64,000 nt of DNA, taken from the NCBI RefSeq assembly GCF_000758825.1, contig NZ_JRMX01000014.1, forward strand, positions 186,001-250,000, in the 5' to 3' direction. This DNA is from Arcanobacterium sp. S3PF19 (lineage in GTDB: Bacteria > Actinomycetota > Actinomycetes > Actinomycetales > Actinomycetaceae). A program made the translations under genes and the position numbers. This document shows, in pieces, positions 44,221 through 50,234 of this stretch; the first letter of the stretch is position 1, and each line of letters starts with the position of its first letter. A model generated the notes under the pieces. The model was not told the origin of the DNA and made no database searches. It saw only the letters and a list, made by a program, of their open reading frames with translations.

Positions 44221-45450
44221 TTACTCTGTTACGGGGCGGCGCAGACGGAGATAAGTTTCCAGGATTCCGTAGGCCGTTTCCGCCGCCGACCGGGCGGCAT
44301 CGGAGAGTTCGGTATGGAAACTTACGGACTGATCGTCAGGTTTTCCGCACAGATCGGAGATTGCGCGGACCGCAACGAACGGAACGGAAAATTCTGCCGC
44401 GACTTGGGCAAGAGCCTGGGATTCCATATCCGTGGTGAGGGCCGCCGGGAACGTTTCGCGCACGCTCCCCACGTTTTCTCCGGTGACAAACGTGTCCGAG
44501 GAATTCATCTGCCCGAATCTCACGTCCGCTTTTTTCTGCGCGTCTTCGCCCATTTGGCGGCGCAGATATTCTTCTGCCGCTTTCAGCAGACCGGGAGCGG
44601 CTTTGAATACCGCGGGCTGCTGCGGAACCTGTCCCGGAACGTAGCCGAAAGCCGTTCCGTCGGCGCCGGCGTTGACGTATTCGGTGCCGATTACCACTTC
44701 GCCCACCCGGGTGTCGGCCGCGAGCCCTCCGGCGCTGCCGCAGCAGATAACCGTCTTGGGGGAAAATGTGGAAAGTACGGAGGAAAGTGAGGAGGCGGCG
44801 CTGACCATTCCGATTCCGGTGGTGAGGAGAAGGAGTTTTGCGGGCGGCTGCTCGCCGTCGCAGGTCTTTCGCATGGCTATGCTCAGGTTTTTAAAGCTGC
44901 TGGAGACGGGATGGATCTCGTAATCCGGAAGAAGTTTTTCAACTTCCGCCGTTTCTTCCCCCATTGCGCAGACAAACAGCGCGTCAACCGCTTTGATCTG
45001 CATGGAATCGCGCTCGCGGGACTGTGTGAGATCCGCGCATGTCTGCTGGCATTTGGGGCAGTATCCCCAGAATGTAACTTCCGCTTCGTCAAGACGGTAA
45101 TCGTGTGTGTCGTTTGGCGTGAGGCAGGGGGCTTCGCCGATAATGCAGTCGATATTGATCATTTCGTAGCAGTTTCGGCATACCAGATGATGATGGTTGA
45201 AATTGGAGTTCAGTTCATATACCGGAACGGATCCTGCCGGCTCTGCGCTACGGAGAATGGATTTTTCCGTCAGTGCGTGCAGCACGTCGTAAACCGCCTG
45301 TGTAGACACAGAACCCAGAGCCTTCGAAACGGCAACCCGCACCGCATCGGCGGAGGAATGTGGGTGGCGTGACAGAAAGTCGAGAATTGCGAGGCGCGGC
45401 TTCGTGACTCTTAAACCGACTTCGCGTAACTGTTCGGCGTAAGTCTTCAT
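44221..45450 (-). CDS. Fur-family regulator fused to an MTA/SAH nucleosidase
   Basis: One uninterrupted 409-codon frame joins two complete enzymes/regulators. Residues 1-150 are a Fur domain: winged helix with RVTKPRLAILDFLSRHPH, the metal-site segment NHHHLVCRNC and a second Cys pair CPKCQQTC, as in structural zinc sites. From about residue 155 comes a nucleosidase of the MTAN (Pfs) type. It has ALFVCAMGEETAEV (acid Glu region), GIGMVSAASSLSSVL, CCGSAGGLAADTRVGEVV and DMESQALAQVA, plus the catalytic Asp in AVRAISDLCG. All key residues look intact. Such enzymes cut methylthioadenosine, S-adenosylhomocysteine and 5'-deoxyadenosine. The fusion suggests a metal- or redox-sensing repressor tied to SAM by-product removal. 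Confidence 0.9.
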   Translation of the reverse strand: MKTYAEQLREVGLRVTKPRLAILDFLSRHPHSSADAVRVAVSKALGSVSTQAVYDVLHALTEKSILRSAEPAGSVPVYELNSNFNHHHLVCRNCYEMINIDCIIGEAPCLTPNDTHDYRLDEAEVTFWGYCPKCQQTCADLTQSRERDSMQIKAVDALFVCAMGEETAEVEKLLPDYEIHPVSSSFKNLSIAMRKTCDGEQPPAKLLLLTTGIGMVSAASSLSSVLSTFSPKTVICCGSAGGLAADTRVGEVVIGTEYVNAGADGTAFGYVPGQVPQQPAVFKAAPGLLKAAEEYLRRQMGEDAQKKADVRFGQMNSSDTFVTGENVGSVRETFPAALTTDMESQALAQVAAEFSVPFVAVRAISDLCGKPDDQSVSFHTELSDAARSAAETAYGILETYLRLRRPVTE

Positions 45451-45768
45451 ATTTTATATAATTGCCTTTCACAGGTATTTTTTCAACCGATTTCATATAT
45501 TGCGATAAAATTTTCCCACTTTTTGTATGTTATGCCCGGACCCGTGTCGGTATTTGGGAAGTTCTTCCCGATATAATCGGGTTTTGCTGTGATTTTATAC
45601 GCTAAGCATTCCCTAATTCCTGCGGGCCGGAACGTTTTTGCCCGAACTTTGTTTTCGCCCGGCGGAAATTTGTTTTTACAAATTTGTCATACGTTTTGCG
45701 CGGGGGTGTCTGATGCGGCACGCGGTGTGAAACAGTGCAGCCCGAAACGGCCATATTTTCAGCGGATT

Positions 45769-46006
45769 TTATTCACAGCTGTGGAAAAATTTATTAAATT
45801 TTGTGGACAAGTGGATATTTTTTATACACAGGGTGTTTATAACCGCGCGGATCCGCGCTGCCGTGTTCCGCCTCATTTCAGATTCCGCGTTGTTTTCCGA
45901 ATTGGTTTCGGGCAGAAAAATTCTGTGGAGCGCGGTGGGATGATTGCCCTACGGCATCCGGATGCGGGGGATTTTATGGAAAGGAGTGTGGAGATTTTGT
46001 GGAAAC
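45769..46006. promoter_or_regulatory. Cluster of DnaA-box-like sequences
   Basis: Within 62 bases there are TTATTCACA (45769-45777), TTTTCCACA on the minus strand (45788-45780), a perfect TTGTCCACA on the minus strand (45810-45802) and TTATACACA (45822-45830). These surround an A/T-rich core (AAATTTATTAAATTT). GTTTCCACA follows on the minus strand (46006-45998). TTTTCCACA and GTTTCCACA are the same two variants seen between dnaA and dnaN. It could be a DnaA control or titration site, or part of an origin. Confidence 0.6.
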
Positions 46007-46158: not shown

Positions 46159-46248
46159 TTACTTGTATTGTTCGGAAATGGATAAAGCAGTAAAAATTTA
46201 GACATACGGCACCGAAATTCTCGGAACACAGAAACAGGAGAAGGAGTA

Positions 46249-46497
46249 ATGAGCATAACGGTTTACACCAAGCCTTCGTGCGTTCAGTGCAACGCCACAA
46301 AGCGTGCCCTGAAGAAAAACGGACTGGAATTCAGCGAAGTTGATCTGACCGAAGACGAAGAGGCACTTGCCACGGTGAAGGCGCTGGGATACAGGCAGGC
46401 TCCGGTCGTGTTTGCGAACGGCGACCACTGGGCAGGATACCGTCCGGACAAAATCAAAGCCCTGGCCCGGATTTCGGCGCAGGCCGTCACGGCTTAA
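46249..46497 (+). CDS. nrdH: Glutaredoxin-like protein NrdH
   Basis: Electron donor of class Ib ribonucleotide reductase. The 82-residue protein has the redox motif CVQC in YTKPSCVQCNATKRAL, the cis-Pro in GYRQAPVVF and the NrdH-type tail WAGYRPDKIKALA. The ATG follows a GGAGAAGGAG ribosome site. It is the first gene of nrdHIEF, under two NrdR boxes, and a structured 115-base gap separates it from nrdI. Confidence 0.95.
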   Translation: MSITVYTKPSCVQCNATKRALKKNGLEFSEVDLTEDEEALATVKALGYRQAPVVFANGDHWAGYRPDKIKALARISAQAVTA

Positions 46498-46507
46498 ACA
46501 GCACGGG

Positions 46508-46579
46508 CGCATACAGAGTCGGCCGGAGTTAAAATTTCGGTTTTAACCCCGGCTTCTTTGCGCAAAGACGCTGTATGCG
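46508..46579 (+). repeat. Nested inverted repeats between nrdH and nrdI
   Basis: An inner hairpin pairs 46522-46534 with 46541-46553 (12 of 13 bases, arms GCCGGAGTTAAAA and TTTTAACCCCGGC, loop TTTCGG). An outer pair CGCATACAG (46508-46516) with CTGTATGCG (46571-46579) encloses it. On RNA this would form a two-level structure in the intercistronic gap. The inner stem followed by TTCTTT may act as a leaky terminator. Confidence 0.6.
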
Positions 46580-46612
46580 GCCATACCGACGGTATTTTGG
46601 GAGACGGTAACG

Positions 46613-47014
46613 GTGGTTAATATCGTTTATTTTTCTTCTGCCACAAACAACACAAAACGATTCGTGGAAAAACTGGGCTATCCCGCCCGGCGCATTCCCC
46701 TGCGGCGGAACGATGAATTTTTACGGGTAAGCGAAGAATATGTGCTTATCGTTCCGACCTACGGAGGGGGAAACGCGAAAGGCGCGGTGCCCAAGCAGGT
46801 GATCAGGTTTCTCAACGACAGCCAAAACCGCTCTCTGCTGCGCGGGGTGATCTCCGGGGGAAACACAAATTTCGGCACGGCCTACTGCATGGCGGGAGAA
46901 ATTATTGCGGCAAAAACCCATGTGCCGCATATGTATAAATTTGAACTTCTGGGCACATCCGAAGATGTGGAGAAAGTACGTAAAGGATTGGAAGAATTTT
47001 GGACACAACTCTGA
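46613..47014 (+). CDS. nrdI: Flavodoxin-like protein NrdI
   Basis: Flavoprotein that supplies the oxidant for building the manganese-tyrosyl cofactor of NrdF. The 133 residues carry the flavin phosphate loop [17 protein letters not shown], the [20 protein letters not shown] segment and the [18 protein letters not shown] loop typical of NrdI. Its start is a GTG, and its end overlaps nrdE by 16 bases. Confidence 0.95.
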
Positions 47015-49146
47015 CAGACACCGGCGAAGAAATTACGGATCCGGCGCTTGACTACCATTCGCTCAATGCCCGGCTGAACCTGTACAGCAGCGAAGGAAAA
47101 ATCCAGTTTGAAGCGGACAGGGCGGCGGCAAGGCAGTATTTTCTGCAGCACGTAAACAAAAACACCGTCTATTTCCACGATTTGGAAGAAAAACTGGAGT
47201 ATCTGACCGAAGAGGGATACTACGAAAAACGGGTGCTGGACATGTACAGTCCCGAATTTATCAAGTCGCTGTATAAAGCCTGCTATGCCCATAAATTCAG
47301 GTTTCCCACATTCCTGGGGGCGTTCAAATACTATACGTCTTATACACTGAAAACTTTCGACGGAACCCGCTATCTGGAGCGGTACGAAGACCGCGTCTGC
47401 ATGGTTGCCCTTACGCTTGCCGAGGGCAGTGAGCAGAGGGCGGAGGAAATTATGGAAGAGATTATCTGCGGCCGCTTTCAGCCTGCCACGCCGACTTTTC
47501 TCAATGCGGGCAAAGCCGCGCGCGGCGAGCTGGTTTCCTGCTTTCTGCTGCGCGTCGAAGACAACATGGAATCCATTTCGCGGGCGGTAAATTCGTCCCT
47601 GCAGCTTTCCAAACGCGGCGGAGGCGTTGCGCTCAACCTTTCCAATCTGCGTGAAATGGGCGCGCCGATCAAGAAAATCCAAAATCAGTCTTCCGGTGTA
47701 AACCCGGTGATGAAAATACTCGAAGACGCATTTTCCTATGCGAATCAGCTGGGAGCCAGACAGGGCGCGGGCGCGGTTTATCTCCATGCGCATCACCCGG
47801 ATATTATGCGTTTTCTCGACACAAAGCGCGAAAACGCAGACGAAAAAATCCGGATTAAAACGCTTTCGCTGGGTGTCATTATTCCCGATATTACCTTTGA
47901 GCTGGCGAAGAAGAATGCCGATATGTATCTTTTTTCGCCTTATGACGTAGAACGCGTATACGGTGTTCCGTTCACCGAGATTTCCGTTACCGAAAAGTAT
48001 GAGGAAATGGTAAACGATAAGCGGATTCGGAAATCGAAAATAAACGCCAGACATTTCTTCCAGACGCTGGCGGAAATCCAGTTTGAATCCGGATACCCCT
48101 ATATCCTATTTGAGGATACGGTAAACCGGGCAAATCCGATTGCCGGAAAAGTGACGATGTCCAATCTCTGCTCGGAGATTCTGCAGGTTTCCGAGGCGTC
48201 GGAATTTAATCCCGATCTTTCGTACAAAAAAATCGGAAAAGATATTTCCTGCAACCTGGGTTCGCTGAACATTGCCAAAACGATGGATTCGCCCGATTTC
48301 GGAAAAACCGTCGAAACGGCAATCAGGGCTCTGACGGCAGTGTCCGATCAGTCCGATATTTCCAGTGTGCCTTCCGTCGAACGCGGAAACAGAATGTCGC
48401 ATGCGATCGGTCTCGGGCAGATGAATCTGCACGGTTTCCTGGGCAGGGAACGGATTCACTACGGCAGCGAAGAAGCGCTCGATTTTACGAATATGTATTT
48501 CTATACGGTTGTGTATCACGCTATCCGCGCTTCGATGACGATTGCCCGCGAACGCGGTGAAAAGTTCGACAACTTTGAAAATTCGCGGTACGCCGACGGC
48601 ACGTTTTTCAGGAAATACACGGAGAAAACGTGGGAGCCGAAAACGCAGCGTGTTCGCGAACTGTTTGCAAATATCCATATTCCCACCCGGCAGGATTGGC
48701 GCGAACTGCAGGCGGATGTGGAAAAATACGGGATGTACAACCAAAATCTGCAGGCGGTTCCGCCTACGGGGTCCATTTCATACATCAACAATTCGACGTC
48801 CTCCATTCACCCGATTGTGTCGCGGATAGAGATCCGCAAAGAAGGAAAAATCGGACGTGTTTACTATCCGGCGGCCTATATGACCAATGACAATCTGGAA
48901 TATTATAAGGATGCGTATGAAATCGGCCCGCAGGCGATTATAGATACCTATGCGGTTGCCACGCAGCACGTGGATCAGGGTCTCTCCCTTACGCTGTTTT
49001 ACCCGGATACCGTGACCACGCGCGATGTAAACAAAAACTATATCTACGCATGGAGAAAGGGAATCAAGACTCTCTACTATATGCGTATCCGGCAGGCGGC
49101 ACTGGACGGCACGGAAGTGGACGGCTGTGTCTCCTGTATGCTCTGA
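46999..49146 (+). CDS. nrdE: Class Ib ribonucleotide reductase, large subunit NrdE
   Basis: Reduces ribonucleoside diphosphates to deoxy forms. The 715-residue protein has catalytic Cys in [13 protein letters not shown], the active-site loop SNLCSEIL, the second redox Cys region [13 protein letters not shown], the [18 protein letters not shown] segment and the C-terminal CVSC pair that NrdH reduces. It lacks the N-terminal allosteric cone of class Ia enzymes, as expected for NrdE. The start is a TTG inside the end of nrdI, implying coupled translation. A perfect hairpin follows its stop before nrdF. Confidence 0.95.
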
Positions 49147-49153
49147 CTAAATG

Positions 49154-49183
49154 TTTCGGGCCCGGGCCGCCCCGGGCCCGAAA
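49154..49183 (+). repeat. Perfect hairpin between nrdE and nrdF
   Basis: TTTCGGGCCCGGG (49154-49166) and CCCGGGCCCGAAA (49171-49183) form a flawless 13-bp, very GC-rich stem with loop CCGC, eight bases after the nrdE stop. No T-run follows, so a plain terminator is unlikely; it could block message decay or slow ribosomes and so set the NrdE:NrdF ratio. Confidence 0.8.
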
Positions 49184-49250
49184 CGGACAGCCGCAAATTC
49201 GCGGCGAAAAGCGGAAAACGGAAAAGACGTGAACAAAAGGAACGGAATAG

Positions 49251-50234
<984 letters not shown>

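Follow-up and report, generated by a model that had tools for sequence, protein, structure and literature searches.

A predicted single-chain fusion of a FurA-type regulator and an MTA/SAH nucleosidase in Arcanobacterium sp. S3PF19

Arcanobacterium sp. S3PF19, an actinobacterium with a small genome, harbours a gene in which a FurA-type regulator and an MTA/SAH nucleosidase (MTAN) are encoded as one protein. In the window, the whole stretch of 64,000 nucleotides analysed here, the fused furA-mtan gene occupies positions 44221..45450 of the (-) strand as a single ATG-to-stop frame of 409 codons plus stop, encoding 409 aa. The same frame was recovered free of stops in a whole-genome search (G000:C14:230224-231450, G000 being the window's genome). 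The Pfam family FUR (PF01475) matches residues 11-101 (E=4e-17, 62.9 bits, above the gathering cut-off of 23.1 bits), and PNP_UDP_1 (PF01048) matches residues 159-402 (E=1.7e-34), also above its gathering cut-off. The unbroken 409-codon frame with Fur and MTAN domains claimed in the earlier note was thus borne out by the ORF, Pfam, NCBIfam, and the whole-genome search. Judged from its sequence, the Fur-MTAN fusion is real, rare, and lineage-specific, and it is made of known parts rather than being a new kind of system. It is likely that co-transcribed neighbours were fused in this lineage after the loss of luxS, giving two tethered modules that are probably independent of each other.

The PF01475-PF01048 architecture, whose spread the earlier note had proposed to map, proved to be rare and not that of a common family. 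Among the matches listed, no other Fur-MTAN fusion was found in the overlapping samples of 213 genomes from the family, 396 from the order, and 396 from the phylum. A protein search of genome contigs matched one relative only, an Actinomycetaceae MAG in which the region is unfused. A second fused frame considered in G008 ('open frame 703') was rejected, as a TAA directly follows FurA. A literature search, incomplete in its coverage and therefore weak evidence of novelty, revealed no description of a Fur-nucleosidase fusion or of a furA-luxS(-mtan) operon. The fusion is known from one assembly of 15 contigs, so that one miscalled base at the former linker stop codon is still conceivable. The AlphaFold model of the fused protein, obtained from the single sequence, reached a mean pLDDT of 36 and was too poor for use.

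According to Pfam and the alignments, the FurA half comprises residues 1-135 (45046..45450, (-) strand), with a winged helix, a His/Glu metal site, and a Cys4 zinc site. Pfam FUR ends at residue 101, and solved Fur/PerR proteins align with the fused protein through residue 136, past the second Cys pair. The structural zinc site is formed by CRNC (C91, C94) and CPKC (C131, C134), at positions occupied by Cys in 44-46 of the 46 aligned Fur rows, a few of which are duplicated. An HHH segment is present at residues 86-88, H31, E79, H86, and H88 are invariant throughout the alignment, and the recognition-helix residues are retained. The regulatory site of PerR (His37, Asp85, His91, His93, Asp104) is stated to be conserved in FurA of M. 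tuberculosis (PMC2630230). The position of PerR Asp104 corresponds to N99 in the fused protein; among the 46 rows it is D in 40 and N in 6.

Relatives of the FurA half elsewhere in the phylum share 42-57% identity with it. The gene directly 3' of furA relatives encodes a catalase (PF00199, 3 loci) or a KatG-type peroxidase (PF00141, 5 loci) at all of the eight loci tested, seven of them outside the host family and one inside it (G017). The sequence assigns the Fur half to the FurA type of actinobacteria, the catalase regulators. A second Fur-family gene is present in G000 on contig C15, separate and different from the fused gene. The FurA half has diverged no further than unfused FurA proteins have (mean residual -0.053, sd 0.081). 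When scaled by NrdE, the divergence of both halves lies within the spread of unfused relatives, and relaxed selection was not seen on either half in this comparison.

Most of the furA genes that precede a catalase or KatG carry a palindrome (consensus TCTTGAATCGTTCCAGA) whose distance to the start codon is 36-39 bases, and it occurs at about -37 in most furA loci of the phylum and many of the family. In the region preceding the fused gene, a -35-like TTGAAA at position -36 (45481..45486, (-) strand) corresponds to the left half left over from this FurA operator palindrome, which in relatives has the form CTTGAA-N3-TTCCAG at the same site; the right half is missing. The region upstream of the fused gene reached a FurA operator score of at most 3.4, below the 95% level of 5.5 obtained by shuffling. 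The unfused relatives G006, G001, and G002 have lost the palindrome as well, so its loss is not tied to the fusion alone. From the sequence, a -10-like TATATA (45455..45460, (-) strand) occupies positions -10 to -5 relative to the ATG, and the transcript of the fused gene is probably leaderless. For mycobacterial furA, the start codon is also where the transcript begins (PMC2358910), which is thus leaderless, and FurA binds there to head-to-head repeats that overlap the promoter (PMC12713383).

The MTAN half, delimited by Pfam, NCBIfam, alignment, and solved MTANs, comprises residues 150-409 (44224..45003, (-) strand), with E166, E343, and D366 in the active site. It scores 127.2 bits against the NCBIfam model TIGR01704 for MTA/SAH nucleosidase, whose cut-off is 73.8, and 139.3 against NF004079, below the cut-off of 169. 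Solved MTANs match this half with a best E=2e-32. The motifs GSAGG (238-242), ME (342-343), and AISD (363-366) are present, and E166, M342, E343, R362, S365, and D366 are invariant in 19 aligned MTANs. The catalytic Glu/Asp and substrate-site residues of E. coli MTAN are Glu12, Glu174, and Asp197. The HHH segment, the two Cys pairs, and the AISD and Glu regions described in the earlier note were all located where it had placed them. By score and motifs, the C-terminal half is an ordinary MTAN. Many MTANs of relatives continue at the C-terminus for about 200 further residues, which weakly match PF18780 (HNH_repeat, homing endonuclease associated repeat), such as those at L027:352-1752, L028:574-1965, L024:1216-2613, L031:2076-3440, and L033:2433-3761; the MTAN of the window is without such an extension.

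Four other PNP-family proteins are encoded in G000; their best-scoring models are those for purine or uridine phosphorylases, with two of the four above the cut-offs, and the fused protein appears to be the only MTAN of this genome. A search for SAH hydrolase gave no match in G000. Since neither another MTAN-scoring protein nor SAH hydrolase was matched there, the MTAN half is probably needed, and the removal of SAH in G000 would probably depend on the fused protein alone. The Pfam search for catalase (PF00199) and KatG (PF00141) gave no match in G000, nor downstream of the fused gene. LuxS was without a match in seven out of ten genomes of the genus, including G000, so S-ribosylhomocysteine produced by the MTAN would be without a known user there.

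Relatives of the window's genome carry furA and mtan as two distinct genes in the same orientation, and unfused relatives possess the same flanks as the fused gene, a divergent nrdHIEF and a convergent prolyl oligopeptidase. The order furA-luxS-mtan, with LuxS identified by PF02664, was found in ten family loci from several genera (L040-L044, L046, L047, L050-L052), and it is present in G001, which belongs to the same genus as the window. The 3' end of luxS mostly overlaps or abuts the mtan start in these loci. Several of them carry a FurA-type palindrome upstream, which places a catalase-type regulator at the head of genes for SAH recycling and AI-2; this operon is arguably of more interest than the fusion. 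The distance from furA to mtan is 26 bp in G006, and the two genes overlap by 4 bp in G223, from another genus. In G002 and G007-G009 the gap is roughly 170-320 bp, varying with the mtan start chosen, with about 200-240 bp as the estimate for G007-G009, and G002 carries luxS elsewhere, outside the furA-mtan interval.

This distribution suggests an ancestral unit furA-luxS-mtan, probably one operon, from which luxS would have been lost in the lineage of the window, leaving furA and mtan end to end. The stop between them would then have disappeared in the window's species, so that FurA and an intact MTAN are translated as one chain across a linker of 14 residues. That the loss of luxS came first and the fusion later is what we infer from the gene order in the relatives. 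The linker (residues 136-149, QTCADLTQSRERDS; 45004..45045, (-) strand) comprises the former C-terminal end of FurA and a spacer, as judged by where FurA ends and mtan begins in relatives. It is followed by the ATG of Met150 (45001..45003, (-) strand), which aligns with the separate mtan starts of relatives and is the probable ancestral mtan start codon. No luxS remnant was recognisable in the linker of the fused gene or in the furA-mtan gaps of relatives. The FurA/PerR-like half would bind metal and DNA, and the MTAN half would split MTA, SAH, and 5'-deoxyadenosine, which would make the protein bifunctional. Both parent families, Fur and MTAN, are homodimers, so one dimer can hold both modules; the fused protein is probably dimeric, and the fusion would mainly fix the co-expression of its halves. 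Together with the intermediates found in living relatives, the fusion would illustrate how the loss of a middle gene turns an operon into a fusion protein.

Many genera of the family have nrdHIEF (window 46249-50234) in divergent orientation to furA, and NrdE was found in 16 of the 21 loci compared. Control of nrdHIEF by FurA was considered and rejected, as no consistent FurA box was found near nrdH in relatives. One weak FurA-like site in the window, at 46161, has a score of 9.2, which is within chance for 64 kb. The interval separating nrdH from the fused gene contains five 9-mers resembling the DnaA box, with no more than one mismatch to TTATNCACA, clustered within about 75 bp (window 45769-45842); the window background is about 1 per kb. 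In many relatives (L040, L041, L043, L044, and L052-L058), furA has a similar cluster 170-500 bp upstream. The cluster perhaps reflects control of nrdHIEF by DnaA.

Three points count against this reading of a lineage-specific fusion into two modules, namely its occurrence in a single genome, the lack of a luxS remnant, and a start at Met150 that could still be used. Alternatively, there might be no real fusion product: an assembly error could mask a linker stop, or a start at Met150 could yield a separate MTAN and leave the halves mostly apart. The single assembly, the close relatives that are unfused with stops just after FurA, and the position of Met150 at the ancestral mtan start speak for this, which we nevertheless regard as very unlikely. 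FurA and MTAN share one reading frame, and the linker consists of sense codons only (14/14), so that only a miscalled stop, and not an indel, could feign the fusion. The Shine-Dalgarno match at Met150 is weak (-2.2 kcal/mol, compared with medians of -3.75 among 28 long ORFs in the window and -1.8 over all ATGs), and an internal start is therefore possible without being favoured. It is also unlikely that the Fur half is no longer a regulator and is just an appendage at the N-terminus of an MTAN that is essential. The lack of matches to catalase, KatG, and LuxS in G000, the degraded auto-operator, and the lack of a consistent FurA box near nrdH would agree with such an appendage, whereas the conservation of the zinc-site Cys, the His/Glu metal ligands, and the residues of the recognition helix, and a divergence of the FurA half not beyond that of unfused FurA proteins, argue against it.

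The intact halves and the short linker would also suit a regulator with two inputs, in which nucleoside binding or turnover by the MTAN alters DNA binding by FurA, or metal or peroxide at FurA alters the nucleosidase; moreover, furA and mtan are long neighbours behind a FurA operator in relatives. However, the fusion occurs in one genome only among those sampled from the family, order, and phylum, relatives make FurA and MTAN separately from adjacent genes, and the region upstream of the fused gene is without a recognisable operator. The loss of luxS from between furA and mtan would already account for the fusion. Coupling between the halves, including the nucleoside-sensing or nucleoside-gated repressor suggested in the earlier note, is thus unsupported and quite improbable. 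We likewise give little credence to a single-chain regulator, derived from the old furA-luxS-mtan operon, that couples the level of SAM by-products to metal- or peroxide-dependent DNA binding. If true, such a protein would form a direct link between the sensing of oxidative stress and the chemistry of AI-2 and the methyl cycle.

Similar to actinobacterial FurA and its relatives FurS and CatR, which regulate katG/katA, the fused protein possesses a Fur domain with the same ligands. The palindrome at the furA loci of relatives agrees with the published mycobacterial furA, which has an inverted repeat overlapping the promoter and transcription starting at the start codon (PMC12713383, PMC2358910). 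Unlike actinobacterial FurA, the fused protein has a C-terminal MTAN, and unlike at actinobacterial FurA loci, its gene is without a downstream catalase and its operator is degraded. With bacterial Pfs/MTAN (PDB 4x24, 3dp9, 1jys) the fused protein shares a full-length domain and the same catalytic residues, but it differs from these in the DNA-binding domain N-terminal to the MTAN and in the lack of a LuxS partner in G000. There is a precedent for linking an MTAN to a second domain, namely the bifunctional MTAN/phosphatase proteins (NCBIfam NF011286, NF005213). The fused protein scores far below both of these cut-offs, and its partner domain is a regulator, whereas theirs is a phosphatase.
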